From: a virus
Direction: 5' to 3' (one strand)
IMG/VR virus record: IMGVR_UViG_3300044816_000217
Coordinates: 1-46,546 of that record
DNA: 46,546 nt
In this document: positions 1-45,870 of the stretch, piece by piece
How positions within the stretch are numbered: position 1 is the stretch's first letter
Layout of the letters: each line of letters starts with the position of its first letter
Notes under the pieces: model-generated
Told to the model about the DNA's origin: nothing
Seen by the model: only the letters and a program-made list of their open reading frames with translations
Databases searched by the model: none
Program-made: the position numbers and the translations under genes

Positions 1-1116
1 GTGCCAAACGTCCGCTTCACTGATTTGTCGGTTCGCTCCCTAAAGCCGGGCCTCTACTTTGATGAGGTCACGCCAGCCTTCGGGCTGCGCGTCGGGGCGC
101 ATCGGCGCACGTGGCTGGTGGTCAAAGGGGACCGCGCACATCGCAGCAAAGTGCGCTTGGGCCACTATCCAGCCCTCACTCTCTCAGACGCCCGCAAGAA
201 GGCGTTGGTGGCGCTTGGGAGCCCCTATGCTCCGAAGGCCAAGGCCCCGACTTATGGGGAGGCCGTCCCTGCCTTTCTTGAGGACCATTACGACGGCAAG
301 TCCGCTCGTTCGAGGCACGAAGCAACTCGCCTTCTGGGCCGCATCAATTTCCATGCGAAGCAATTGTCTGACATTGGCGACGAGGACTTGGAACGAGAAC
401 TCAGCCGTCTCGCGCATATCCCGAGCGAGCAGCTTCACGCGTTCCGCGCTCTCCGGGTTTTCTTCAAATGGTGTACGCGCCCACCGCGCCGGTTCATCAG
501 GCACTCTCCGCTAGAGGGGTTCGAGCCGCCCAGCCAGGACAAAAAAGGAACCCGAACCCTCACCGATAAAGAGCTGGTCAAAATCTGGCACGCCTGCGAC
601 CGCCCGTACGGGGGCATGGTGCGGTTGCTCATCCTTTGGGGCACGCGCAATGGTGAAACGGGCCGGCTTCGTCGCGAATGGATGGATCGCAAAGCGATCG
701 TCATCCCCGGAGAGGTTACAAAGAACAAGCGCGCCCACACGATCCCACTTCATCCGCTCGCCCGCTCAGTGCTCGCCGATCAGAAGTCCAACGGCTCATA
801 CTTTTTCCCCGGCAAGCGTATGGACGACTCCTTCTTCAAGGATGGATCGTGGGGCAAGCTTAAAAAGGAAATCGAGAAAGCGTCTGGCGTCACCGGCTGG
901 CAGCTTCGCGACATCCGCAGGACGTTCCGTTCGAACATGGCGAAGCTCAAAGTCCCGCGTGAGATATGCGAAATTCTGCTCAACCATGTGACGGGCGCGA
1001 ACAAGAACGACCTCGATGAAATTTACAATCGGTACGATTATTTTGACGAGAAGCGCGAAGCACTCGGGAAATGGGAAAAGCGTCTATCGTTGCTACTGGG
1101 AGTTCCGGGTAAGTGA
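1..1116 (+). CDS. int: Tyrosine-type site-specific integrase
   Basis: 371 aa phage integrase that would recombine the phage attP with the 3' half of a host tRNA-Gly gene. The N-terminus (about 1-75) has the SLKPGLYFDE...GLRVG pattern of the DUF4102 arm-binding domain. A core-binding domain follows, then the catalytic domain. Visible catalytic residues are R216 in GTRNGE, the basic TKNKRAHTIPL strand, R306 in RDIRRT, H329 in LLNHV and the probable nucleophile Y342 in EIYNRYDY. The box usually written HxxR begins with R303 here. The GTG start is the first base of the window, so an upstream start cannot be excluded. It is the leftmost prophage gene, matching attR at the far end. Confidence 0.95.
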   Translation: MPNVRFTDLSVRSLKPGLYFDEVTPAFGLRVGAHRRTWLVVKGDRAHRSKVRLGHYPALTLSDARKKALVALGSPYAPKAKAPTYGEAVPAFLEDHYDGKSARSRHEATRLLGRINFHAKQLSDIGDEDLERELSRLAHIPSEQLHAFRALRVFFKWCTRPPRRFIRHSPLEGFEPPSQDKKGTRTLTDKELVKIWHACDRPYGGMVRLLILWGTRNGETGRLRREWMDRKAIVIPGEVTKNKRAHTIPLHPLARSVLADQKSNGSYFFPGKRMDDSFFKDGSWGKLKKEIEKASGVTGWQLRDIRRTFRSNMAKLKVPREICEILLNHVTGANKNDLDEIYNRYDYFDEKREALGKWEKRLSLLLGVPGK

Positions 1117-1228: not shown

Positions 1229-1429
1229 ATGCGCTTTTTAACGAAGCGAAACGTGTGCGAAAAAATCGCCGTGAGCCGCGCCACTCTGGACAGGCTCAAA
1301 GCCGATCCGAAGTTCCCGAAGAGGGTGCAACGGGGAGGTCGCGTGTACTGGCCGGAGGACGAAATTCACGCGTGGATGCTTGAGCGCATGGCCGCACGTC
1401 AGAAGCACTCAGACACTCTCTCCATGTGA
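1229..1429 (+). CDS. AlpA/MerR-like DNA-binding regulator, probable excisionase
   Basis: 66 aa. The sequence RFLTKRNVCEKIAVSRATLD...FPKRVQRGGRVYWPEDEIHAWM is the winged-helix layout of the AlpA/HTH_17 family: a helix-turn-helix at about 5-24, then a wing with RVYW and the DEIHAWM helix. Such proteins serve as excisionases or as regulators of the neighbouring integrase. A strong AGGAGG at 1216-1221 fixes the ATG. A terminator follows immediately, so int and this gene form a self-contained unit. Confidence 0.85.
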   Translation: MRFLTKRNVCEKIAVSRATLDRLKADPKFPKRVQRGGRVYWPEDEIHAWMLERMAARQKHSDTLSM

Positions 1430-1519: not shown

Positions 1520-1951
1520 ATGCACATTACGATCGAGCACAACACCTTAAGTAATCCAGTCTCTCGCGAAAAAAGCGTTTTCAATTTCATAAAGCCTCCG
1601 CAAGCGACCGAAACGATATTTCAGGTAATTCTCTCCGTGCGGCTGAGCGAAGAAGAGCGCGCGATCTGCGCCACATACAAGTTGTTCGACTTGATCCTGT
1701 TCAGCACTACATTCCATGTGAGCCCTGAACAGCTTAGAGAGAGGCCCGACTGGCGCATCCTCATTGACGACATCGACCATACGATAGGCGACATCACGAC
1801 TGGAAAAGAACTAGGTTTCGAATTCGGCTCCCTTCCTGAAGCTCAAGCTTTCGAGCAACAGCTTAAGACCGTTCACCTCCCCAAGCTGAAACAGCATATA
1901 ACGTCCACTGACAAGCTTGCGGCAAACCCCAAAACCACTTTCGAACTCTGA
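1520..1951 (+). CDS. Hypothetical protein upstream of the ATPase
   Basis: 143 aa, not recognised. It has a mostly alpha/beta composition with acidic stretches (RILIDDIDHTIGDI near 75-90). The start is preceded by a purine-rich GGGGGAA. Its TGA shares its final A with the ATG of the ATPase gene at 1951, so the two are probably translationally coupled and the product may act with the ATPase. No signal peptide or membrane segment is evident. Confidence 0.7.
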   Translation: MHITIEHNTLSNPVSREKSVFNFIKPPQATETIFQVILSVRLSEEERAICATYKLFDLILFSTTFHVSPEQLRERPDWRILIDDIDHTIGDITTGKELGFEFGSLPEAQAFEQQLKTVHLPKLKQHITSTDKLAANPKTTFEL

Positions 1952-4176
1952 TGGCCGCAGAAGACCCCGATCAGCCGACCGTGTGGACCGTATTGGGCGA
2001 CATCGGCGCGACCATTTCCAACGAAATTTCGATAGCACTCATTCAACGGAGGCTCGCTCGATACGACCGCGACCACCAAGAAGAAAACCGAAGACGGTCA
2101 CAGGGCCTCGATAGTCACCAAGTCTACGAGACCGCCAAACGCGCTGTCGAAGAAGCGGGAGCACTCACCCCGCCCGAATTCCTTCAACTCTTTCACGAAG
2201 AGTACAAGGAACGCATTGAGGCCGAAAACGGGCCGATGATGCCGAATCCCGATCTGTACCGGGAGATCTTGCTCGTTGCCGGTACGATTTACTCTGAAGA
2301 AGGCTTTGGCGATCCGATACCACCACCGCCTCAAGGTCTCGGCGCCATCGAAGAAGCCCGATATCGGGACCGACTGCTTGCGAAGTCCGCAAAATTGTCT
2401 GATCCGACCACCCTTAGTCGGGTCTACCTCTCTATCATCAACAGCCTTGAGTACTTCACCGTCTTCGTTCCGTTTCTTGGATCGAAAGAGGCGTCGCGCC
2501 TACTCCCGGAGAACAGCCTCACGATTTCGCTACTCGACCTCATGGAAGACGTGGGGGAAGCGATCGACAACATCATCCTTCCATTCTATGCGCCCGCCGT
2601 CATCGAAGCCGGCTTGTTTAATTCGCTCCGCAACCAGCTCGATGCCAATATCGAACGCGTCTTCAAAGCACCCGACGGCGGAATGCCGTCTAAGAGCGAT
2701 CTGCAAGGCGAAGCTCTCGTGAAGGCTTTTCTGGGCGGCACGCCTTTGGAGCGCCTATTCTACGCTAGGGTTCCCTTCTATATTTCAGATTCTTCCATGC
2801 TTGAGCACTGCATGGTCTGCGCCGGAAGTGGATGGGGCAAAACTCAGCTACTTGAACGCATCATCCTTGATTTCCTGTCTCGCAACAATCCGCCAGCTCT
2901 AGTGATCATCGATTCACAGGGCGATATGTTGAAGCGCATCCGCCAGCTCGCCGTGTTCGATCCCGATACAGGTAAGCATAAAGACAACCTCGTCATCATC
3001 GACCCGGAGATCGATTCCCCCGCCTTGAACATGTTCGACACCTCGATGCTCGGCCGACATCAGGATGCCACGACACGAGAGCAGATAGAGGCAGAGATCG
3101 TCACCCTCTTTACTTACGTATTCTCCGCTATCGAAGGCGACCTGAGCAGGCGAATGGGCACGGCGTTCTCTTATGCCGTTCGTCTCATGCTCTCTCTACC
3201 TGGCTCGAATATTCATACACTCCGCAAGCTTCTCGACGACGACGCAAAATCGCTCGATACGAGTCCATTCAGAGATGCCATCCTTGCGCTTGATCCTACG
3301 GCGCAAGACTTTTTTCGCGGACATTTTTTCCTGCCCGGCTTTCTGGGGACGCGCAAGGCGCTCGCGGATCGTATCCTTGGCGTCCTTCAGATACCCGCAT
3401 TCGACCGAATGTTTTCAACGGTCAACAAGCTCGACATGTATAGCGCCCTTCAGTCCGGCAAGATCGTGCTCGTAAACACCACCAAGAACATGCTGAAGGA
3501 GAAGGGCTCTGCTCTCTTCGGCCGTTTTATCATCGCCCGTGTGCTCTCAGCTGCATTCGAGCGCGTAGCATTGCCGGAAGAAGAGCGACAGTCTGCTTTC
3601 CTGCTGATCGACGAAGCCAGCGAGTACCTAGACGAGACTACCGACAGCATTTTGAAGCAAGCGCGGAAGTACAAGCTCGGCCTTTTAATCGCTTTTCAGT
3701 ACATGGAGCAGATGCCCCAAGCGCTTCGCTCCTCCGTCTTTGCGAACACAACGGTCAAGTATGCAGGCGGCGTCTCCCATGCCGATGCGACTGCCCTTCA
3801 CAAAAACATGGGGCTTCCCAACGATCACCTTATAAAATCACTTCGGAAGCGCTCTGGCGGTACGCAGTTCGCCTGCTACGTTCGTAACACGACCGATCGG
3901 GCCGTTACTCTCAACGTCCCATTTGGTGCTCTCACCAACGAGCCGAAGATGTCTTCCGCAGCGATGGAGCGCGTGTTGACGCGAAACCGGGAGCGCGTGG
4001 CCTACACGCCGCCGCCGCTTGTTGTTCCACTGCCGGAGCCACCAATGCAGCCGGCTATAGCCCTTCCGGCTTCGCCCTCAACTGTTACTGCTCCCCCACC
4101 ACAGCCGTTGCAACGGAAGCCAGAACCGAAGCCCAGCAATCCCCAGCTACCGCGTGAAGATACCGGCCGCTTCTAG
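1951..4176 (+). CDS. TraD/VirD4/VirB4-like P-loop DNA-transfer ATPase
   Basis: 741 aa. About 290 residues precede the motor domain. Walker A is GSGWGKT (292-298), a first hydrophobic strand with acidic end is LVIIDSQGD (D321), and Walker B is LLIDEASEYLDE (D554, E555). It is followed by a polar strand LLIAFQYMEQMP that resembles the sensor strand of conjugative coupling ATPases. The tail after about residue 690 is proline-rich and probably disordered. This fits the T4CP/TraD/HerA superfamily of hexameric DNA pumps rather than a terminase, and the phage has its own TerL. No membrane segment is obvious at the N-terminus, unlike classic VirD4. It is coupled to the upstream gene and followed by a replication-relaxation protein, suggesting a DNA-mobilisation or replication module (inference). 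Confidence 0.8.
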   Translation: MAAEDPDQPTVWTVLGDIGATISNEISIALIQRRLARYDRDHQEENRRRSQGLDSHQVYETAKRAVEEAGALTPPEFLQLFHEEYKERIEAENGPMMPNPDLYREILLVAGTIYSEEGFGDPIPPPPQGLGAIEEARYRDRLLAKSAKLSDPTTLSRVYLSIINSLEYFTVFVPFLGSKEASRLLPENSLTISLLDLMEDVGEAIDNIILPFYAPAVIEAGLFNSLRNQLDANIERVFKAPDGGMPSKSDLQGEALVKAFLGGTPLERLFYARVPFYISDSSMLEHCMVCAGSGWGKTQLLERIILDFLSRNNPPALVIIDSQGDMLKRIRQLAVFDPDTGKHKDNLVIIDPEIDSPALNMFDTSMLGRHQDATTREQIEAEIVTLFTYVFSAIEGDLSRRMGTAFSYAVRLMLSLPGSNIHTLRKLLDDDAKSLDTSPFRDAILALDPTAQDFFRGHFFLPGFLGTRKALADRILGVLQIPAFDRMFSTVNKLDMYSALQSGKIVLVNTTKNMLKEKGSALFGRFIIARVLSAAFERVALPEEERQSAFLLIDEASEYLDETTDSILKQARKYKLGLLIAFQYMEQMPQALRSSVFANTTVKYAGGVSHADATALHKNMGLPNDHLIKSLRKRSGGTQFACYVRNTTDRAVTLNVPFGALTNEPKMSSAAMERVLTRNRERVAYTPPPLVVPLPEPPMQPAIALPASPSTVTAPPPQPLQRKPEPKPSNPQLPREDTGRF

Positions 4177-4182
4177 TAAAAT
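4177..4182 (+). promoter_or_regulatory. -10-like hexamer ahead of the 32-aa ORF
   Basis: TAAAAT lies directly after the ATPase stop codon and 6 nt before ATG 4189. This is the spacing expected if transcription starts at the start codon. Confidence 0.35.
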
Positions 4183-4188
4183 TATTTT

Positions 4189-4287
4189 ATGTACTCACAC
4201 CGCCCCGAACCGCGGCAATCCAGTCCAAGCCTCCTCAATCCGAGTCTTGCTCGCCGAATTTATGCGTTTATTAGAAAGGACGCATGA
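4189..4287 (+). CDS. Small leader ORF (32 aa)
   Basis: A 32-codon ORF beginning ATG-TAC-TCA, with a basic C-terminus (RRIYAFIRKDA). It has no Shine-Dalgarno site and has T before the ATG. Its stop overlaps the ATG of the replication-relaxation gene as ATGA, so it may mainly serve to deliver ribosomes to that start. Function is unknown, and it could be non-functional. Confidence 0.4.
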   Translation: MYSHRPEPRQSSPSLLNPSLARRIYAFIRKDA

Positions 4288-5222
4288 ATGCGCCGCTCAC
4301 AAAGACACGATGGGGCACGGAGCCGGTTCTTAGGAACGGGCAACCCATAGTCATTCTGCCGAGACAAGTGAAGGATTACCTTCACTACCTCACCCCGTTT
4401 GCCCGACACCGCTTCCTCAACAACGACCAGCTTACGAAGCTGTCCGGCCGCTCCTTCGATACGACGGAGCGCGCCATTCACGTCCTGAAGAGCGAGCCGA
4501 ACTTCCTCCTAAAGCTCTGCGACGAGCAAAACCGTAACCGCCGCTTCTATCAGAACTCGAAGGCTTACTACGAACTCTCTCCGAAAGGAGAGAAGGAGCT
4601 GAGGGATCGGGGCGTTCCCATCATCGCGCAGAACAGCTCCCGCAGCTTTGACCACGAAGTGATGACGAATGAAATCAGTTCGTCATTCGACATCGGCGCG
4701 AGAGAGACCGGCACGGAAATATGGTGGTGGAACGATCTCACTGACAAGTTGAACCCTGGCGCTACGGCGAGTGTTCCGCTCGACGTGCCCAGTTCGAGAG
4801 ATGCAAAGAAGGTCAAGCCGACCTACTTCCACCCGGACTACCCGCCGCTTGTCATTAATCGGAAATTCTTTTTGCACGGCTTTCAAACCGACTGCGATTC
4901 CGAGGATCTCGACCCGAAAACACAAAAGGGCTCGTCGATTCGCCACCACTTCGAGCGATCGATCGACATCATGCGGCGGGGCATCTTCCGCACGCACTTC
5001 GGCACTGAGACCTTCTATGTGCCATTTGTCACCACCTTTGAAGGTCGCATGCGCAACATGATCGCGCTTCTTCAGTCCATAGACGCGAAGGACTGCGAGC
5101 GCTTCTTTCTCTTCAAATGGATGCCGACATTCAAGCTCGGCACACCTGCTCCCGTCACGGGACACATGCTCACCGAACCGTGGCTGCGAGGCGACGGACG
5201 ACAGTTTTCATTTCTCAAATAG
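4284..5222 (+). CDS. Replication-relaxation family protein (Replic_Relax-like)
   Basis: 312 aa. The N-terminal 100 residues form a winged-helix region (FARHRFLNNDQLTKLSGRS...YELSPKGEKELRDRG) typical of Replic_Relax proteins, which are linked to plasmid replication or DNA relaxation in mobile elements. The remainder contains EIWWWNDL, RKFFLHGFQTDCD and a C-terminal FLFKWMPTF region expected of the family. AAAGGA lies 3 nt before the ATG, and the start overlaps the upstream mini-ORF by 4 nt. Its pairing with the TraD-like ATPase is the main argument for a DNA-mobilisation module. No relaxase tyrosine can be assigned by eye. Confidence 0.7.
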   Translation: MNAPLTKTRWGTEPVLRNGQPIVILPRQVKDYLHYLTPFARHRFLNNDQLTKLSGRSFDTTERAIHVLKSEPNFLLKLCDEQNRNRRFYQNSKAYYELSPKGEKELRDRGVPIIAQNSSRSFDHEVMTNEISSSFDIGARETGTEIWWWNDLTDKLNPGATASVPLDVPSSRDAKKVKPTYFHPDYPPLVINRKFFLHGFQTDCDSEDLDPKTQKGSSIRHHFERSIDIMRRGIFRTHFGTETFYVPFVTTFEGRMRNMIALLQSIDAKDCERFFLFKWMPTFKLGTPAPVTGHMLTEPWLRGDGRQFSFLK

Positions 5223-5231
5223 GAGGTTGAA

Positions 5232-5408
5232 GTGCTGGACCACAAGAAGCTCTCACGCATCAAGGAATTGATTGAGCAGAAGGAAGCCGTCGAAGGCGAG
5301 CTTTCTCAGCTCTTAGGCGATGCTGCGGCTGCGCCGAAACGCGGCAGACCGGCAAAAGAAAAAGGCGGAGCCGAAGCCCCGCCCATTCCGCCTGCCGGCG
5401 ATCACTGA
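5232..5408 (+). CDS. Small coiled-coil protein with AT-hook-like motif
   Basis: 58 aa with GTG start. AGGAGG is at 5221-5226, partly inside the previous stop codon. Residues about 3-30 (HKKLSRIKELIEQKEAVEGELSQLL) form an amphipathic helix, followed by APKRGRPAKEKG, an AT-hook core (RGRP) in a basic context, then a proline-rich end. It probably binds DNA and belongs to the same operon as the ATPase and replication-relaxation protein, perhaps as an accessory factor (inference). Confidence 0.7.
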   Translation: MLDHKKLSRIKELIEQKEAVEGELSQLLGDAAAAPKRGRPAKEKGGAEAPPIPPAGDH

Positions 5409-5656: not shown

Positions 5657-5845
5657 TGGTACTCTCTTTCTCCCGACATCATGTTCGGGAGCGGGGCTTC
5701 GAAGCACACGCTCTTTCGAGCCGCAAAGTGCTGGCTTTGAACCAGCTCCGAAGCGCCGCTCCCGTACACGATCACTGTCCCCATCATACCAAGTGCCTGC
5801 TGCCCCGCATGAGAAGATGTGGAGAGCAGAAAGGAGGGTGCGAAC

Positions 5846-6649
5846 ATGAACAGCACCAATGATCTTATCCAGTCGGTCAAAGAGAACGTTACGATCCACC
5901 AGTGCGTTCAACTGCTCGGCATTCAGATGAACGTCGTGAAGGATCAGCTACGTGCGGCTTGCCCTACCTGCCGGACAGGTGGGCCGCGTGCCCTTTGCGT
6001 CACGCCGGGGCACAAACGCAACGACGGGTCGCTCGGCTCGTTCTACTGCCACGGCGGCAAGGTTGGGGGAGATAAGATTGGCCTCGTCGCCCACATTCGA
6101 AACCTGTCTCAGTCGGATGCGGCGAAGCTGATCCAGGAACATTACGGGTCAGGTCCGCAGAAGCGGGCAGTACCCGGCAATTCCCCCAGCCCACCTCAGA
6201 AAGAAAGGGCAGGCTTCGACATCGAGGCCTATGCGAAGCGGCTCGACCCGGAACACGACGCCCTGGCACCTCTCGGCATCTCCGCCGAAACGCTCAGGGA
6301 GTTCAAGGCTGGGTATGCCGTCAACGGCGTCCACAAGCTGCGGCTGGCGTTGCCGGTGTCGGACCAAACCGGAGCCATCCAGTTCTACGTCGGCCTTGCT
6401 CTCGGAGATGAGCAGCCAGCGATCAAGGTGCCGGAGGGCCACGATCCCACGCGTTACCTTTTCAACGCACACCAAGTGGAGCCCGGCGACGTGCTGTACG
6501 TCTGCCGGTCCCCGATCGATCTCTTGAAAGCGTGGGAGAACGGCGTGCGGAACATCGTTTCGTTCGTCGGCCCGATGGACTCGGACGCGCTTACACTTCT
6601 CGCCCACTTCATGGACCAGAACCAGATTCCGGCCATGGAGCCTATGTGA
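5846..6649 (+). CDS. DnaG-type primase-like protein (zinc-binding domain plus degenerate TOPRIM-like region)
   Basis: 267 aa. The start is set by AAGGAGGG at 5831-5838. Residues about 10-95 (CVQLLGIQ...RAACPTCR...CVTPGHKRNDGSLGSFYCHGGKVGGDKIGLVAHI) resemble the CHC2 zinc-ribbon primase domain with candidate ligands CPTC and YCH. The C-terminus (LYVCRSPIDLLKAWENGVRNIVSFVGPMDSDA) has the TOPRIM fold order, but where DnaG has the catalytic glutamate (EG) this protein has CRSP, so it is probably not a full primase. It may recognise origins or prime in partnership with host enzymes (inference). A hairpin follows the stop. Confidence 0.75.
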   Translation: MNSTNDLIQSVKENVTIHQCVQLLGIQMNVVKDQLRAACPTCRTGGPRALCVTPGHKRNDGSLGSFYCHGGKVGGDKIGLVAHIRNLSQSDAAKLIQEHYGSGPQKRAVPGNSPSPPQKERAGFDIEAYAKRLDPEHDALAPLGISAETLREFKAGYAVNGVHKLRLALPVSDQTGAIQFYVGLALGDEQPAIKVPEGHDPTRYLFNAHQVEPGDVLYVCRSPIDLLKAWENGVRNIVSFVGPMDSDALTLLAHFMDQNQIPAMEPM

Positions 6650-9968: not shown

Positions 9969-10252
9969 GCCTCGACTATGCACTAGCGAAGGAGTTGAAG
10001 GACGCGGGGTTTCCCCTCAAGCAAGTTCCTGACGTTGTGATGGGTGGGCCGTTCAACAAAATTGATAATAAATTCTTTTATGACCCAACCCTCTCCGAAC
10101 TCATAGAGGCGGGTGGGGACATGTTTGGCCTAGTGCAAAGGAAGTCAAACTGGATTGCGATGTCCGCAGATGCGATTTTCTATCGCGCAGGCTCCACCCC
10201 TGAAGAAGCCGTAGCCCGCCTGTGGCTCGCCCTGCATCAAAGCAGTGCGTGA
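9965..10252 (+). CDS. Hypothetical phage protein
   Basis: 95 aa. The pattern LAKELKDAGFP...PTLSELIEAGGDMFGLV...TPEEAVARLWLALHQ is a common stand-alone phage protein type placed just before terminase genes. I cannot assign a function. It is coupled to the 35-aa membrane ORF by a 4-nt overlap. Confidence 0.75.
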   Translation: MSLDYALAKELKDAGFPLKQVPDVVMGGPFNKIDNKFFYDPTLSELIEAGGDMFGLVQRKSNWIAMSADAIFYRAGSTPEEAVARLWLALHQSSA

Positions 10253-10258
10253 TACAAT
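10250..10258 (+). promoter_or_regulatory. Extended -10 motif (TGATACAAT)
   Basis: TG-A-TACAAT, whose TGA is the stop codon of the preceding gene, ends 8 nt before ATG 10267 of the small terminase. No Shine-Dalgarno site lies between. Confidence 0.45.
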
Positions 10259-10266
10259 TGCCTGAT

Positions 10267-10866
10267 ATGGGCGCTCGCAAGAAGGACAAAGAGCCGAAGC
10301 CAGAACCACCGCTCAATCCCAAGCAGGAGCTGTTCTGCCGGTACTACGCTCAGAGCGGTGATTTCTTTGGTAACGCTACGCTGTCGTATGCGGAGGCCTA
10401 TGACTACGAACTGGAAACGTTATCCGATGAACCTGAGTACGCCCTTGATGCAGAGGGGAAGAGCTTCAGCATCCCGAATGAGTATGACCGTGCCTACAAG
10501 GTGTGCTCTGTCGAGGCCAATAGGCTCCTAGGAAATCCTAGAGTTCAGGCCCGCATCACGATTCTATTGAACGAGCTTTTAAAGGACACCGTCGTAGACA
10601 GTCAGCTTGCGAAGTTGATCATGCAGGATGGCGACAACACGAATAAGATCGCCGGCATCCGCGAATACAATAAGCTCCGTGGCCGCATCATCGACAAGTC
10701 ACAGGACGTGAGCCGCCTCCCATTTGGAGAGAGCGACCTATCCGCCGTGATCGCAACGCTCCCGCAGGAGCGCCAAGACTTTTTCTATGGAATCATCAAC
10801 CAGCTCATCGACGAAGCCGAGCTTCTCAGAAGCACTGGCGCGTCTGAAATCGGCTTCGCTCGGTAG
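10267..10866 (+). CDS. terS: Terminase small subunit
   Basis: 199 aa. LNPKQELFCRYYAQSGDFFGNATLSYAEAYDYE is the N-terminal helix-turn-helix signature of small terminase subunits (NPKQE.F...Y...G....A..AY..AY), followed by VEANRLLGNPRVQARI, also typical. It would bind pac/cos DNA and load the large subunit. A 40-residue acidic insertion interrupts the usual domain. The ATG at 10267 is preferred because it follows a -10-like motif. It overlaps terL by 80 nt in another frame. Confidence 0.85.
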   Translation: MGARKKDKEPKPEPPLNPKQELFCRYYAQSGDFFGNATLSYAEAYDYELETLSDEPEYALDAEGKSFSIPNEYDRAYKVCSVEANRLLGNPRVQARITILLNELLKDTVVDSQLAKLIMQDGDNTNKIAGIREYNKLRGRIIDKSQDVSRLPFGESDLSAVIATLPQERQDFFYGIINQLIDEAELLRSTGASEIGFAR

Positions 10867-12424
10867 CCCGACGGACATACGCCGCAGGTACGGGTCGAAA
10901 CCGATCAAGCTGCTTCGGTACATCGATCCGTCCATGCGCTTCCCCAAGAAGCTGCGTTTGATATTCGCCCTCATATGGCTTCGGCAGGACCAGCAGGGAC
11001 GGCTCGCTACCCGTTTTATCATCAAGGGACCGCGTGGAGGCGGCAAGTCGAAGATCCTCGGCGCCCTGGGCTTCGTGAATTGGTTCCTGCAACTCCGCAG
11101 CATCGTGGACATGGGCGGGTCGCTCCTACAGGCCCAAGGCGTCTACAATTACTTCGTCAGTCACATCTACGCGCAGCCGACCATCGTTGGTGCTCTTCCG
11201 AGCGAACCCACGATCAACAAGACCGAGAGCGACAAGGGCAATTACTTCAAGGCCGTTGCAGCGTCTCCGAAGGCGGTCCGCGGCCCTCACCCCGATCACC
11301 TCTACATCGACGAGGCGTGCGAGACGAAGGACCAGCTCATCCTCGACGCCATGCCGATGGTGAACACATCTCCGTTCTCACTCGTTGTCATGACCTCGAC
11401 CTTCCACAAAATCTTCGGCTACTTCCAAGAGACGTGGGACCGGGCGGAGGAGTTGGGCTGGGTCCGGCTGTCATGGGACAGCTTCGATGTGTGCCAGCAA
11501 TTCGATCCGGCCATCTGGGATGACCCACAGCTCCGTCGAGAGATACCCGACATCGACAAGCTAAAGGAACGCGCCGCCGGCAGGACCGGCGATCCCGAGG
11601 GCTGGATACCCGTTTCGAACATCATCCAGGCATGGCGCGAAAAAACGACCGTCGACTATTTCGACGTGGAGTACATGGGCTCTCGCCCCTCAGCAGAAGG
11701 CATGGTCAACGACCCTGAAGACGTGGACGCATGCGTGATCGACGAGTTCGGCGAGTATGCCTATCGGACAGGGTCAGATACGGCAGGCGGTCTCGACTGG
11801 GGCTTCGCGGGCATGACCTCATGGACACCGTTGATGGCCCACAAGGACAACATCAAGGTGGAGTTGGGCGGGCGCACATGGAGCCAGGTCCGAAGTGGCG
11901 TCATCATTGCGGACATTGTGTCCGATGTCCTTAAGTACCGCATGTCCGTTATCCATGCGGATGCTTCACACCCTTTCGAAAATGCCGATCTCCGGGCAGC
12001 CATTAAGACCGCGATAGCTGCGCTCCCCCAGCGGGAGCAATTCAGGTGTGCGGTTGTAGAGGTGCCGTTCGGCCGTCCGGTTCAGGTCGCAGCCAATGAG
12101 AAGAGCGATAAGAAGCGGGAGCTATCCAAGAACCTTGGCACTGAGAAGGAAGTGATGCTCGGCAACTACCGCGCCTACTTCTCGCGCCGGCTCATGCGCA
12201 TCCTGCGGGAATGCAAGACCGCTATCTGGCAACACAAGCGATACCGATATCAGAAGGGCAGCGACAAGCCCGTGAAAGAGGACGACCACATTCCCGATTC
12301 CACGATGCTTGCGCTTCGCAAATGGATGCTCGGGAAACAGACAGCATCATTGCCCGATGAAAAGAAGTCGACGAAGCGCGCGGAGTCCACAGTCACAGGC
12401 GGCTTGATGGAAGAACAGTTCTGA
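10787..12424 (+). CDS. terL: Terminase large subunit
   Basis: 545 aa DNA-packaging motor. Walker A is KGPRGGGKS (80-88) and Walker B is LYIDE (172-176), with coupling motif VVMTST after it. The nuclease domain shows GGLDWGFAGMT (metal-binding D), VIHADASH and DDHIPDSTMLAL near the C-terminus. It is slightly longer than usual because of the N-terminal extension overlapping terS; an internal start at MRFPKKL is possible. The start has no Shine-Dalgarno site and has T at -1 (CTATG). Confidence 0.92.
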   Translation: MESSTSSSTKPSFSEALARLKSASLGSPTDIRRRYGSKPIKLLRYIDPSMRFPKKLRLIFALIWLRQDQQGRLATRFIIKGPRGGGKSKILGALGFVNWFLQLRSIVDMGGSLLQAQGVYNYFVSHIYAQPTIVGALPSEPTINKTESDKGNYFKAVAASPKAVRGPHPDHLYIDEACETKDQLILDAMPMVNTSPFSLVVMTSTFHKIFGYFQETWDRAEELGWVRLSWDSFDVCQQFDPAIWDDPQLRREIPDIDKLKERAAGRTGDPEGWIPVSNIIQAWREKTTVDYFDVEYMGSRPSAEGMVNDPEDVDACVIDEFGEYAYRTGSDTAGGLDWGFAGMTSWTPLMAHKDNIKVELGGRTWSQVRSGVIIADIVSDVLKYRMSVIHADASHPFENADLRAAIKTAIAALPQREQFRCAVVEVPFGRPVQVAANEKSDKKRELSKNLGTEKEVMLGNYRAYFSRRLMRILRECKTAIWQHKRYRYQKGSDKPVKEDDHIPDSTMLALRKWMLGKQTASLPDEKKSTKRAESTVTGGLMEEQF

Positions 12425-12444: not shown

Positions 12445-14634
12445 ATGAATTTCTTTGGCGTGGAGATCGGTTTCACGCGAAACGCAGCCGAACCTAACTC
12501 GGTCACCACTTCGAAGTTGAAGAAGGGTCTTGAGATCGGCGACAGCGGCACACGTATTCTCAACGGTGTCATCAGCGAAGAATACAATCCGAAGCTCACC
12601 GACATTAAAGGCATCGCGATCTACGACGAGATGCGGAAGTCGGATGGTACGGTCAAGGCCGCCGTTCTCGCCGTCACGCTTCCGATCCGCTCAGCAGAAT
12701 GGTTCATCAAACCGGCCAGCGAGGACGCGGAGGACCAGAAGATCGCCGACTTTGTGACGGCGTCTCTGTTCGAACACGACGACATCAGCTTCGCTGACTT
12801 CCTGAGGGAAGCGCTTCTCTCACTCATATTCGGCGTGATGGTATTCGAGAAGGTCTTCGCTACTCGCGAAATGGAGGGCGGCACCAAGATTGTATGGAGC
12901 AGGCTCGCAACGCGTCTTCCTCGATCGATCCAGAAATGGGCCATCGCGGACGGCAAGCCCGGCATCACTCAGAATAAAGCAGACGGCGCACCCGTCGAAA
13001 TTCCGATGGAGAAGCTGATCGTCATTGTCCATGAGAAGGAAGGTGACAACTGGTGGGGCACATCCATCCTGCGGGCCGCCTACAAGCATTGGTTCATCAA
13101 GAACACTTTTTACAAGATCGACGCCATCGCCTTTGAGCGACAGGGCCTCGGCGTTCCGAAGGGCAAGCTTCCCGAAGGCTACACCGAGAACGATCGCTCC
13201 AAGATGGAGACGATCCTCAAGAACATGCGGGCCAACTCGCAGGCCTACATCATTCAGCCTGAAGGCTTCGAGGTTGATTTCATGGACATGATGGCGCGCA
13301 CCACGCGCGATCCGAATGCGTCCATCGCCCACCATAATCGCGAAATCATGAAATCGGTCCTGGCTCAGTTTCTTGAGCTGGGGTCAACCGATGCGGGCGG
13401 CACGGGCGGCTCACGCGCCCTGTCCGAAGATCACTCAGACCTTTTCCTACAGTCCATCGAGGCAATCGCCCGATCATTTGCGACCGCATTCAACAAGCAG
13501 GCCATCAAGCAGCTCGTCGATCTCAATTTCGATAATGTAAAAAAGTACCCCGAGCTAGACTTCGAAGGCATCACCTCCGCAGACGTGGCGGCTCTGGCAG
13601 AGGCATATGAGAAGCTGGTCCGCAGCAACGGATTGACCGCTCAGGAAGCCGACGAGGACTACTTCCGAGAACTCCTTGCCATGCCGGAGTACGACGAGAC
13701 CGGGAAGCGCGAGAAGCCGCAGCCGACGCCTCAGCCAGGTCTCGACCCGGACAAGATGAGCGAGCACCGGTACACACCTCTAAAAAAAAACTTCGCAGAA
13801 GGATTTAAGGCGTTCCGTAAACTGACGTTCGCCGAAGGAAAGGTCAATTTCGACAGTCTCAACGACAAAATGGACGAGCTGGAGGGCCAGTTCGACAGTG
13901 AGACCAAGGCACTCCTACAAGAAGCACGGCAGACGTATATGGCCACCTTCACGAAGGCTGCCCATGCCGGCGACACGAAGGCCATCAAGGACGCCACCTT
14001 GAAGGTTCAGGATGCATACGCGCGCATCATCAAGAACTCTCTGAAAAGCGCGTTTGAATTCGGTAAGAACAATGCCGCTAAGGAGATCGGAGCGAACGCC
14101 CCGGCAAATCCGGCCGAGGTGCTACGCCGTATCGACATCCAATCTGCGGCCATTGCCGATGCCCAAATCGCCGAGATCGTAACGGACAGCAAGAACGCCT
14201 ACGTGGAGGCCCTATCGAAGGGCAACTCCGTCACCGCTGCGCTCGCAGCCGCCGATGCAGCCGCCGATGCTGCGATTACTACCCTAACCAGAGACGCATC
14301 AAGCATCCTCACCGCTGGTTATATAAACCATGGCCGGGACACCGTCTTCGACCGGAATGCCGATGACATTTATGCCTTGCAGCGTTCCGAACTTTTAGAT
14401 GCTCGCACCTGCCCCTACTGCGAATCGATCGATGGCCGGATCGTCGAGAAGGACGATGATTTCGGACGCAATACGATCTTCCACTCCGGGTGCCGTGGTA
14501 TTTGGGTTGCCATTCTGAAGGACGAGGAGGAGCTGCCACGCATCGACGGCATTCCGCAGACGTTAAGAGACAGATTCGGCGACGCGGTCAACGATCTCAT
14601 TCAGCCGAAGAAACCAACGCGGAAACGCCACTGA
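12445..14634 (+). CDS. Portal protein fused to MuF-type head morphogenesis domain
   Basis: 729 aa. Residues about 1-430 are a DUF935/Mu gp29-type portal (IYDEMRKSDGTVKAAVLAVTLPIRSAEWFI; AYIIQPEGFEVDFMD; LELGSTDAGGTGGSRALS). After a proline-rich linker (EKPQPTPQPGLDPDK) and a helical middle, residues about 640-700 carry the SPP1 gp7/Mu gpF signature: ELLDARTCPYCESIDGRIV...IFHSGCRGIW, with a CPYC...C pattern. In most phages these are two adjacent genes. The fusion makes the minor head protein part of the portal ring. Confidence 0.9.
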   Translation: MNFFGVEIGFTRNAAEPNSVTTSKLKKGLEIGDSGTRILNGVISEEYNPKLTDIKGIAIYDEMRKSDGTVKAAVLAVTLPIRSAEWFIKPASEDAEDQKIADFVTASLFEHDDISFADFLREALLSLIFGVMVFEKVFATREMEGGTKIVWSRLATRLPRSIQKWAIADGKPGITQNKADGAPVEIPMEKLIVIVHEKEGDNWWGTSILRAAYKHWFIKNTFYKIDAIAFERQGLGVPKGKLPEGYTENDRSKMETILKNMRANSQAYIIQPEGFEVDFMDMMARTTRDPNASIAHHNREIMKSVLAQFLELGSTDAGGTGGSRALSEDHSDLFLQSIEAIARSFATAFNKQAIKQLVDLNFDNVKKYPELDFEGITSADVAALAEAYEKLVRSNGLTAQEADEDYFRELLAMPEYDETGKREKPQPTPQPGLDPDKMSEHRYTPLKKNFAEGFKAFRKLTFAEGKVNFDSLNDKMDELEGQFDSETKALLQEARQTYMATFTKAAHAGDTKAIKDATLKVQDAYARIIKNSLKSAFEFGKNNAAKEIGANAPANPAEVLRRIDIQSAAIADAQIAEIVTDSKNAYVEALSKGNSVTAALAAADAAADAAITTLTRDASSILTAGYINHGRDTVFDRNADDIYALQRSELLDARTCPYCESIDGRIVEKDDDFGRNTIFHSGCRGIWVAILKDEEELPRIDGIPQTLRDRFGDAVNDLIQPKKPTRKRH

Positions 14635-15484
14635 ACATGACTCTGGCGTAAATGCCATTCACCAGCGCATTCGCTATTTCGGACGCACCTGTTACGTATT
14701 CCTTGCTGAAGACTTCTAACTTGACCCCATCCTTATCGAAGCCATTTCGATGGACACAGTCGTGGCGGTACTCGACTGCCTTGAATAAATCGTTTTTTCT
14801 CTCGCCTAGAACTTCGAAAACGTCCACACCCAAAACGTTCTTGTACATCACATGCACTTTAGCGATGTTGTGGTATAGAACCGAGCGTAAATAGCTCCGG
14901 ATTTCCTTATTCACCAGATCAGGGTCGGCATTGACCTCCGAGAGTCCGAACCGCCGTCCGGCAAGCTCGGTGTCAAATTGCAACAGCTTCTTTTTCTTTT
15001 CTTCGTCTTTCATCACGGCATTGATGAACGTATCTCCTAAGAACGCTTCGAGCGCCCCGATCAAGTGAGCGAAAACCATCCTGTTGATGAGATGCGTGCC
15101 GTCCCCGCCCGATGAATTCAATAACTCTATCGCTTGGTCGTGAGACGCCGTGAATATCCAATACGGATTGTCCGGCGGCTCGTAGTCTGCATCCCAGCCC
15201 TCGTCATCCTCATCAGAAGGCTCGTAATAGGCGAGTTCCGTCTCAATCGTTGTGTCAGGATAATCGTCCAACGTTATTTCACACGAGCTAGCGCTGTTGG
15301 AGCAGAAGGCCGGAAAGCCCGCCTTGCATTTCGGACATTGGACATCTGTTTGGTCTTCCGACCCCGCGTCCGACGCCCGTTCGGCGGACCAGTTGGGCTC
15401 TGGTACATCCACCTCAGTTGAAACCTGCGCCTTGCAGGCGGGGCAGGTGAACCGTACCCGGCACATAAACCTTTGCAATGACAT
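14597..15484 (-). CDS. Zinc-ribbon plus HEPN-type putative ribonuclease (antisense moron)
   Basis: 295 aa on the opposite strand between portal and protease genes. The N-terminus has CPAC and CPKC knuckles (zinc ribbon), then an acidic linker (DEDDEGWDADYEPPDN). The helical C-terminal region (about 125-295) contains EYRHDCVHRNG. R240-x4-H245 matches the catalytic RxxxxH motif of HEPN toxin and defence nucleases, and the helix HLIGALEAFLGDTF before it is HEPN-like. HEPN RNases often abort infection by cleaving tRNA or mRNA. A role against superinfecting phages is inference. The gene overlaps the 3' end of the portal gene by 38 nt. Confidence 0.7.
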   Translation of the reverse strand: MSLQRFMCRVRFTCPACKAQVSTEVDVPEPNWSAERASDAGSEDQTDVQCPKCKAGFPAFCSNSASSCEITLDDYPDTTIETELAYYEPSDEDDEGWDADYEPPDNPYWIFTASHDQAIELLNSSGGDGTHLINRMVFAHLIGALEAFLGDTFINAVMKDEEKKKKLLQFDTELAGRRFGLSEVNADPDLVNKEIRSYLRSVLYHNIAKVHVMYKNVLGVDVFEVLGERKNDLFKAVEYRHDCVHRNGFDKDGVKLEVFSKEYVTGASEIANALVNGIYARVMFSGVSALVSSAE

Positions 15485-43468: not shown

Positions 43469-44020
43469 ATGAACCTCTACGGCTACGCCCGCGTAAGCAC
43501 CAACGGACAGGCACTCGACGCTCAAGTGTTGCAGCTTGAAGCGGCTGGCTGCGCTCGCGTTTTTCGCGAGAAGGTCAGCGGCGCGAAGACCGATCGCCCT
43601 GAATTGAAGAAGATGCTCAAGCTTCTCGGGCCGGGCGGAATGGTTCTCGTGACCAGACTAGACCGCCTCGCCCGTTCCACCCGAGATCTTCTCAACATCC
43701 TCGCGCTAATAAGCGAAAAGAGCGCTGCCTTTAGATCGCTCGGGGACATCTGGGCCGACACCACGACCGCGCACGGCCGCTTGATGCTCACCGTCTTGGG
43801 AGGATTAGCGGAATTCGAGAGGGAGTTGATACGCACCAGGACGGCTGAGGGTCGCGCTCGAGCGGTGGCGATGGGTGTGCGACTTGGTCGCCGTCCAAAG
43901 CTCGATCAGGAGCAACGCCGGCAAGCCTGCGCTCGCAAGGCTGCTGGCGAGGACGTGCGGTTGATTGCCAAAGACTTCAACGTATCGGATTCGACGATCT
44001 CACGGCTGCAATGCGAATGA
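43469..44020 (+). CDS. Serine recombinase (resolvase/invertase family)
   Basis: 183 aa. YGYARVSTNGQALDAQVLQLEAAGCARVF contains the catalytic Ser10, then EKVSGAKTDRPELKKML, LVTRLDRLARSTRDLLNIL and AEFERELIRTRTAEGRARA (E-helix). The C-terminal HTH (EDVRLIAKDFNVSDSTISRLQ) binds DNA. This size and layout equals Tn3-type resolvases and Gin/Hin invertases. Together with flanking inverted sites it may run a DNA switch or resolve multimers. It is a second recombinase in addition to the tyrosine integrase. Confidence 0.93.
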   Translation: MNLYGYARVSTNGQALDAQVLQLEAAGCARVFREKVSGAKTDRPELKKMLKLLGPGGMVLVTRLDRLARSTRDLLNILALISEKSAAFRSLGDIWADTTTAHGRLMLTVLGGLAEFERELIRTRTAEGRARAVAMGVRLGRRPKLDQEQRRQACARKAAGEDVRLIAKDFNVSDSTISRLQCE

Positions 44021-44359: not shown

Positions 44360-45016
44360 GTGGCGAAACAAGCAGCCAAGCTCACAAGCGGACGCGACAT
44401 CGTTCGAGCGCTGTTCCTTGCCAACTTGGGCAAGATTGTCACCAAGGAGCAGATTATCAAAGCCATCTGTACCGGGCTAGGTGTGGATGATTACGAAAAT
44501 TGGCACCAGCGGCTTTCTGAACTCCGTACCGACGAAGGTTTTACAATCCTCTCCGGGAGGGACCGCAAGGACCTCAAGCCGGGCCAGTACCTTCTCCTCT
44601 CGACCGAACGACGCGAGATCGCCAGCAAACGCACGAGGCCAACTCCTGAAACTTGGAGAGCCGTTCTGAAGCGTGCTGGCAACTGCTGTGAATGGAAAGA
44701 AGGCGGTATTGCCTGCGGTCTACACAACGGTGCCATCGACCCGGTTGGAGGCGGAACCGTCAAACTGACTCCCGACCATATGACGCCGCACTCAATCGAC
44801 CCCAAGTCAGATCCCGACAAGCCTGACCAGTGGCAGGCACTGTGTGGCCGCCATCAGGTCACCAAACGGAACTACTGGGATAGCACGACCGGGAAACTCA
44901 ACGCGGTCGCCATCGTACAGGCAGCAGCCGAAAAAGAGAAAGATGTGATCTTCGGCATGCTTCTCGAATATTACGGATTCACAAGGGACGCTGACGGCAA
45001 TATAAGAAAGGCATGA
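44360..45016 (+). CDS. HNH-type restriction endonuclease
   Basis: 218 aa, GTG start. The N-terminal ~90 residues are helical (GRDIVRALFLANLGKIVTKEQIIKAICTGLG: winged-helix like). The C-terminal domain has CCEWKEGGIACGL, then LTPDH (D139-H140), and LCGRHQVTKRNYWD (C162, H165, N-containing), an HNH/beta-beta-alpha-metal nuclease pattern. It is followed by a DNA methyltransferase overlapping by 4 nt (ATGA), so it is most likely a type II restriction enzyme. Its specificity cannot be read from the sequence. Confidence 0.85.
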   Translation: MAKQAAKLTSGRDIVRALFLANLGKIVTKEQIIKAICTGLGVDDYENWHQRLSELRTDEGFTILSGRDRKDLKPGQYLLLSTERREIASKRTRPTPETWRAVLKRAGNCCEWKEGGIACGLHNGAIDPVGGGTVKLTPDHMTPHSIDPKSDPDKPDQWQALCGRHQVTKRNYWDSTTGKLNAVAIVQAAAEKEKDVIFGMLLEYYGFTRDADGNIRKA

Positions 45017-45870
45017 ACAAGCCTCTCAAACGCCCTCAGCCCGAAACCGCTCCCGCCGAGCGCATCAGCTTCCTTCCTGCCCAAGATGTCTTCGATGCAT
45101 TCGACACGATCGAGCGCATGGACATCCGGCCCAAGTGCACGATGCTCGACCCTTGGTACAACAAGGGTGTTGGCGGCGTTATCGACAATTACGACCAGTT
45201 CATTGAACGTCTGCTTGACCGCGCATGCGCTATTAGCGAGCACGTCTATCTTTGGGGCTTCCCCGAGATCATTGGTCCGTATGTTCGCTCGGTGCCGAAA
45301 TCACACGAACTCGTCGCTTGGCTCACTTGGTATTACAAGAACAATCCCTCGGTCATTCGCGGCTGGCGCAGCAGCCAAATGGCATGCCTCCACATAGCGA
45401 CACCCGACGCGAAGATGTACCCGCAGAACTTCCTAAATACCGTCCAGAAGGAACGTCTCGCCAACAAGAAGCTACGATACATTCCCGGTCCAACCAGCGT
45501 TATCGAAAGTGCTCTCTTGATCGGGTTCGTCGGCAAAAAAGAACAGACCGGCCACCCCGCCCAAAAGCCGATGCCCGTTTACGACAAGCTTGTTCGCATG
45601 GTCACAGAGGAAGACGACCTCATCTTTGATCCCATGTGCGGTTCGGGGACGACCGGCGCGGTAGCACTTGTTCGCAACCGTCGCGCCATCCTCTGCGACA
45701 TGGAAGAAGAGTATCTCGACATCTCTCGCAACCGCCTCACCGACGACCAAACCGGCTTCGCTGCAAAGCTGGACCTTGCAGGCAACAACCCCGACATTAT
45801 CAAGCGTCCCAAGCGACCGGCTGTCATCATGGAGAGCGAGCTACCTTTCGAGTTCGACAGTACTTCTTAG
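45013..45870 (+). CDS. DNA methyltransferase (amino-group, beta-like)
   Basis: 285 aa. Catalytic motif IV is TMLDPWYNKG (D46-P-W-Y49; a variant of DPPY) and precedes motif I DPMCGSGTTGAVALVRNRRAILCDMEEEYLDISRNRL (about 206-240), the beta-class order. LIGFVGKKEQTGHPAQKPMPVYDKLVRMVTEEDDLIFDPMCGSG is the typical motif X/I link. It would methylate adenine N6 or cytosine N4 and protect the lysogen from the HNH nuclease. Last prophage gene before attR. Confidence 0.9.
   Translation: MNKPLKRPQPETAPAERISFLPAQDVFDAFDTIERMDIRPKCTMLDPWYNKGVGGVIDNYDQFIERLLDRACAISEHVYLWGFPEIIGPYVRSVPKSHELVAWLTWYYKNNPSVIRGWRSSQMACLHIATPDAKMYPQNFLNTVQKERLANKKLRYIPGPTSVIESALLIGFVGKKEQTGHPAQKPMPVYDKLVRMVTEEDDLIFDPMCGSGTTGAVALVRNRRAILCDMEEEYLDISRNRLTDDQTGFAAKLDLAGNNPDIIKRPKRPAVIMESELPFEFDSTS

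Follow-up and report, generated by a model that had tools for sequence, protein, structure and literature searches.

We found that a gene cassette near the left end of a viral DNA record carries the hallmarks of a plasmid mobilisation module. The record, IMGVR_UViG_3300044816_000217 from IMG/VR, was analysed over its full 46,546 bases (the window), and the cassette occupies positions 1520–5408. We favour, with roughly even confidence, the reading that a family of temperate siphophages has a MOBC mobilisation cassette as a fixed part of its genome, and that in the window this cassette probably serves as a non-transferring DNA-binding and motor unit beside the phage primase. Its four open reading frames (ORFs) are all on the plus strand: orf143 (1520–1951), whose stop codon overlaps the start codon of a 741-amino-acid VirD4/TrwB-class, MobB-like DNA-translocating ATPase (1951–4176); a 312-amino-acid Replic_Relax protein of the MOBC family (4284–5222); and a 58-amino-acid AT-hook-like protein (KRGRPAKEK; 5232–5408), 78% identical to an ORF of the sister phage G002 and similar by eye to an ORF that follows Replic_Relax in a further phage, G005. 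The ATPase motifs are intact, with Walker A (GSGWGKT) at residues 292–298 (2824–2844) and Walker B (LLIDEAS) ending in D554–E555 (3601–3621). These ORFs, coordinates and motifs are as an initial annotation of the window had given them.

The predicted structure of the ATPase places it among conjugation-class DNA motors, as a RecA-like protein of the TrwB/VirB4 class that, by homology, would be hexameric. An AF2 model built from 30 relatives (pLDDT 84.4) had TrwB as its top Foldseek match (E 9e-10), and VIA ranked VirB4 (Z 28.3) and TrwB (Z 26.5) before HerA (Z 22), in agreement with the TraD/VirD4-like assignment of the initial annotation. Among 30 relatives G294, G296, K297, D554 and E555 are invariant and T298 is conserved. 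The Pfam matches of the window protein (TrwB_AAD_bind, DUF87 and TraG-D_C) are weak and under cutoff; its G002 homologue clears the TrwB cutoff (21.8 versus 20.5 bits). When the window ATPase alone was used as query, viral and genome collections gave no matches, and relatives were recovered only with profiles; a PDB sequence search with the ATPase and Replic_Relax profiles gave nothing useful. The ATPase also matches phrog_2666, labelled as a terminase large subunit (8e-9), which would fit a second packaging motor. We rejected this role as extremely unlikely, as the initial annotation had done, because the window has separate packaging enzymes on the plus strand, TerS (10222–10866; PF03592) and TerL (10787–12424; phrog_2 3.7e-21), and because TrwB, VirB4 and HerA rank first among the structural matches. 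No terminase was among the Foldseek and VIA matches listed for the model, which is not proof against a terminase fold, and the same ATPase family occurs on plasmids and islands without capsids.

The Replic_Relax protein of the cassette belongs, as judged by profile similarity, to the MOBC relaxase family, because MobC of the CloDF13 type scores 78.7 bits to the Replic_Relax profile, PF13814; in RefSeq, the CloDF13-type gene goes under ‘MobC family replication-relaxation protein'. The window protein itself is a borderline match (25.3 bits at a cutoff of 25.3, and 26.5 bits in a second search), sister-phage homologues score 28.6 and 32.3 bits, and a Sulfitobacter plasmid homologue scores 61.2 bits. 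The initial annotation was thus right to suspect a Replic_Relax protein next to the ATPase, and its statement that the window has no relaxase does not hold, since Replic_Relax is itself of a relaxase family. It correctly saw no VirB genes: profile searches of the window gave no match to VirB4 (PF03135) or TrbI (PF03743), nor to the HUH relaxase (PF03432). Our own Replic_Relax profile gives MobC just 4.3 bits, so that the link to MobC rests on the Pfam profile. Searches by tblastn with the window Replic_Relax against plasmids, and with that of G002 against phages, gave no match. MOBC relaxases have been described as related to PD-(D/E)XK nucleases, and the prototype, TraX of pAD1, has an N-terminal winged helix (PMC12857230). 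The AF2 model of the window protein (pLDDT 87.9) begins with a MarR-like winged helix (VIA Z 10.7 to 3e6m over 75 residues), followed by a putative PD-(D/E)XK-like domain. It thus resembles TraX in its winged helix and its restriction-endonuclease-related family (PMC12857230), and differs in having conserved Glu and Tyr positions replaced.

The gene order is also that of a known mobilisation module. On plasmid NZ_CP115620, which is typed as MOBC, the gene for the TraM-recognition ATPase MobB (653 amino acids, TraG-D_C) overlaps that for MobC, in the order MobB–MobC. We used this relative of CloDF13, with intact and typed mob genes, as the control after the ORFs of the original CloDF13 record had given no match. 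As in CloDF13 (MOBC1), the window has a coupling-class ATPase followed directly by a PF13814 protein and lacks genes for a type IV secretion system (T4SS). Unlike CloDF13, the window cassette adds a partner ORF, the AT-hook-like ORF and a primase, is carried by a tailed phage, and has the substitutions E201Q and Y226S and no membrane anchor; MobB, moreover, is too diverged to give a significant match to our ATPase profile. Few mobilisable plasmids bring a coupling protein of their own, and CloDF13 is one of these (PMC7431656).

We aligned 62 Replic_Relax proteins, MobC included. H124 and D185 are invariant (62 of 62). Column 201 is Glu in 61 of the 62, the window copy alone having Gln (codon CAA, 4884–4886, plus strand), and column 226 is Tyr in 57 of the 62, MobC among them, with Ser in the window (codon TCG, 4959–4961, plus strand). 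The column-226 Tyr is a candidate for the catalytic Tyr. In MobC, the residues E, E, K, R and Y are spaced consistently with those that we take to be important in TraX, reportedly from work by Francia and colleagues in 2013.

The membrane anchor is missing as well. We measured it as the maximal KD19 hydropathy in the first 120 amino acids of the ATPase, which was 1.24 in the window versus 2.5–3.1 in anchored relatives. A profile of the partner family, derived from 54 bacterial loci, matches the upstream orf143 (E 1.5e-8); orf143 has a value of 1.18 and by hydropathy no transmembrane segment, while its G002 homologue has a transmembrane hairpin. Most relatives combine a transmembrane-anchored ATPase with a soluble partner, or a soluble ATPase with a transmembrane partner; the window has neither. 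The alternation of the anchor between ATPase and upstream partner was seen at loci L003, L007, L008, L030, L080, L092, L094, L104, L105 and others, and loci with an anchored ATPase pair it with a soluble partner of ~119 amino acids. Mobilisation of CloDF13 requires the transmembrane domain of MobB, and MobB additionally assists relaxation (PMC7431656). Because both Glu and Tyr are replaced and neither ATPase nor partner is anchored, the window cassette probably cannot nick DNA or dock to a T4SS, and is probably degenerate for transfer.

Other tailed phages carry the same cassette. Four IMG/VR phages (G002, G003, G005 and G011) have TerL, portal and major head proteins 62–92% identical to those of the window and have the genes for ATPase, Replic_Relax and primase ordered and placed as in the window; an integrase lies at the record end in G002, G005 and G011. 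A phage of a second lineage, G012, has an integrase, AlpA, an ORF, the ATPase, Replic_Relax, a primase and a DUF932 gene, followed by genes that by eye are terminase-like and portal-like. A CHC2 primase follows the cassette in 6 of 6 tailed-phage contigs (in the window a CHC2/DnaG-like gene at 5846–6649, plus strand; phrog_47 1.8e-14) and was found at only 4 chromosomal loci. Since ATPase, Replic_Relax and primase occupy this place in four phages of the same lineage and in a second lineage, the cassette is, by gene content and order, a regular component of the phage left arm rather than a chance insertion.

Its sequence is less conserved than that of TerL, the phages' ATPases being 26–43% identical where their TerL proteins are 68–92% identical. 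In the ATPase tree, four phage ATPases and one from a 3.7-kb contig of a metagenome-assembled genome fall into one supported clade (SH-aLRT 99) that lies among ATPases of Hyphomicrobiales islands. The G005 ATPase falls far from those of the other phages, which suggests that the G005 cassette was replaced by a distant version, not lost; long branches leave the placement of G005 and G012 unsure. In G004, a related phage recovered as 36 kb, the cassette was not found, and as this record has no recognised integrase the absence is unproven; by eye, the left end of G004 (L133, L134) has an ArdC-like ORF, and the right end has a 562-amino-acid HerA-like ATPase together with ORFs of SSB-like and P-loop type. 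Of 50,697 GenBank phages just two gave matches, both distant: Microcystis record Mwe-JY31, and Bacillus phage G when an island query was used.

A different view of the left arm is that an integrative mobilisable element (IME) lies beside a prophage and is joined to it in the record only. The order int–alpA–ATPase–Replic_Relax alone would make an IME, and such islands exist (L086). The junction and order are, however, identical in the four same-lineage phages and the second lineage, and all genes from the cassette up to TerL lie in one run on one strand. With the junction shared across phages, a fused neighbouring IME is largely refuted and very improbable; nor is the window itself an IME, as it has head and tail genes.

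We compared substitution rates between the window and G002. For Replic_Relax dN/dS was 0.18 (0.11 in the winged-helix half and 0.25 in the C-terminal half), and for the ATPase 0.18 in the core and 0.44 in the N-terminal part, with dS near saturation. These values indicate that selection against amino-acid change still acts on the cassette. They bear on whether it is a decaying passenger, that is, a mobilisation cassette from an island or plasmid that is functionless in the window phage. The loss of the anchor and of two conserved residues, together with the fast divergence of the N-terminal part of the ATPase, would be expected of such a passenger; against it, every ORF is open, dN/dS is 0.11–0.25 outside that part, and the cassette was kept in all five related phages with a covered left arm and swapped rather than lost in G005. 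We therefore regard decay as unlikely.

Taken with the primase neighbour, this selection suggests a present role of the window cassette in DNA metabolism, which is the weakest step of our favoured reading. In the ancestor, Replic_Relax would have nicked the excised circular element, and the anchored ATPase would have handed it to the type IV secretion channel of a helper; sister phages may use the same route. In the window, a Replic_Relax protein without the conserved Glu and Tyr, in a cassette without an anchor, would have lost nicking and pore docking. What is kept would be a DNA-binding protein and a DNA motor, most likely aiding replication or processing of phage DNA with the adjacent primase. 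Several points weigh against this reading of the cassette. The window Replic_Relax score lies right on the Pfam cutoff, and its C-terminal nuclease fold was matched weakly (BstEII at Foldseek rank 3, E 0.058, probability 0.23). The substitution rates suffer from the near-saturation of dS, and a search of the window for an origin of transfer (oriT) identified none. Finally, G002 and G003 keep both residues and the anchor, so that transfer may be the selected function of the family.

This last point leads to the sister phages. G002, G003 and G005 retain Glu201, Tyr226 and the membrane anchor; G011 retains the Glu without the Tyr or the anchor, and G012 retains Glu and Tyr without the anchor, a comparison of residues and anchors that involves small numbers of phages. 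We tentatively consider, as a possibility on the low side, that G002, G003 and G005 encode their own MOBC relaxase and anchored coupling protein, so that their excised prophages could leave either in virions or through a helper T4SS, and that the window member has lost the second route.

It is also conceivable that the cassette still mobilises the window prophage, with excision by Int and AlpA, nicking of the circle by Replic_Relax and delivery by the ATPase to a helper T4SS, giving the phage two transfer routes. The homology and gene order shared with MobB–MobC, the intact Walker motifs and the conserved residues and anchors of the sister phages agree with this, and loss of the transmembrane domain is tolerated by some coupling proteins, such as TcpA (as cited in PMC7431656). 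We nevertheless think it improbable, given E201Q, Y226S and the missing anchor in the window, while the same domain is essential for MobB (PMC7431656). Thus the suggestion of the initial annotation that the phage may move as a mobilisable element fits the family, by its match to CloDF13 MobB–MobC in the same order, and is doubtful for the window copy; its other suggestion, DNA partition in the lysogen, found no specific support.

We also weighed a defence, superinfection-exclusion or anti-conjugation device, in which a HerA-like ATPase would act with a nuclease-like partner, as in HerA–NurA, HerA–Sir2 or the MADS ATPase. The ATPase has PADLOC matches to mad8 (2e-14) and HerA (2e-5), HerA and HerA-defence complexes are among its structural matches, and relatives lie in islands with restriction-modification (R-M) cargo. 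The window pair resembles HerA–NurA and HerA–effector complexes in joining an ATPase of the HerA/FtsK/VirB4 superfamily to a nuclease-like protein, and differs from them in an ATPase structurally closer to TrwB and VirB4, which outrank HerA, in a partner that is a Replic_Relax protein with a winged helix, and in its location on a mobile element. In addition, the nuclease motif is broken in the window copy, and the position beside int/alpA and primase is constant. Membership of a MADS system was rejected, as only the mad8-like and weak mad1-like matches were present among the proteins scanned. A defensive role is accordingly of low probability in our view.

Beyond phages, a profile scan of genomes gave 159 ATPase relatives, of which 80 were kept, mostly from alphaproteobacterial chromosomes. 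A co-occurrence survey, as the initial annotation had suggested, found the cassette gene order at ~50 chromosomal loci, on plasmids and in other phages; this recurrence and the profile match of orf143 argue that the arrangement is not due to chance. ATPases of ~690–740 amino acids are usually followed by Replic_Relax, and a second group, of ~900 amino acids, is not. Members of the latter from several phyla (L045–L048, L051, L053, L054, L058 and others) have no Replic_Relax nearby and mostly have a second, ~400-amino-acid coupling-type ATPase close by. Roseobacter islands have a constant core of a transmembrane ORF, a 119-amino-acid partner, the ATPase and Replic_Relax, with AlpA and integrase at the opposite end and defence cargo between. 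Plasmid carriers include pSfHH103a2 and Sulfitobacter NZ_CP081110, which has the same three-gene order. Like the window, the Sulfitobacter plasmid and the Roseobacter islands have a partner ORF, an overlapping ATPase (34% identity over 82% of the query) and Replic_Relax; unlike it, they show no virion genes, and their ATPase is anchored and their E and Y are intact. Mobility typing may overlook modules of this kind, since it classes 24 of the 30 plasmids with ATPase relatives, and also the original CloDF13 record, as non-mobilizable. In the Rhodoplanes order the ATPase family is present in 20 of the 397 genomes covered. A search of 11 cassette-bearing genomes did not recover TerL, and none of these 397 gave the portal protein, so that the searches yielded no sequenced host, with flanks, of the phage lineage.

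Phage infection and conjugation are usually regarded as separate transfer routes. Here, by our reading, complete temperate phages would carry a relaxase and coupling-protein pair as a conserved trait of their early region, always in one position; the pair persists though its sequence diverges to ~40%, and apparently has even been swapped for a distant version. This raises two testable questions: can conjugation mobilise prophages, and can relaxase–coupling pairs become genes of phage DNA metabolism? Some members have lost anchor and active-site residues together, which offers natural comparisons. P1-like mobilisable phage-derived plasmids are comparable, as phage-plasmid elements that gained mob/oriT (PMC10879196). 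The window cassette differs from these in being a fixed part of phages that integrate and have all their structural genes, whereas in the known conversions of phages to mobilisable elements (PMC10879196) phage genes are lost.

Between the cassette and the primase gene lies a long imperfect inverted repeat with 28-nt arms (5678–5772), with a single-strand fold z of −4.5, which is not conserved at the same place in G002. A 22-nt stretch upstream of the primase gene (5770–5791) is common to the window and G002, and a hairpin at 1437–1462 looks like a terminator.

The first base of the record is the start codon of a tyrosine integrase (1–1116, plus strand; PF00589, PF13356, phrog_1 8.6e-37) and the last base belongs to the stop codon of the final ORF, as would be the case for a provirus trimmed at gene boundaries; one end of the G002 record likewise lies at the integrase start. 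An AlpA-type excisionase or regulator follows the integrase (1229–1429, plus strand; PF05930 6e-9), with 78% identity to its G002 counterpart. Downstream of the primase come TerS, TerL, portal, protease, major head protein and tail genes, a peptidase/endolysin, RecT, a resolvase and an R-M pair. The resolvase, a small serine enzyme (43469–44017; PF00239 8e-42), is ~40–50% identical to resolvases of ATPase-bearing plasmids (L002, L004 and L005) and 67% identical to that of G005, a plasmid-like trait of an integrative phage. Within the head operon, a gene on the minus strand (14597–15484) has a weak HEPN (RiboL-PSP) match and a match to phrog_29321 (1e-28), and is possibly a moron. At the right end of the prophage (44360–45870), a type II restriction enzyme (PADLOC REase_II 1.5e-78) is followed by an overlapping N6/N4 DNA methylase (PF01555), which likely form a complete R-M pair.

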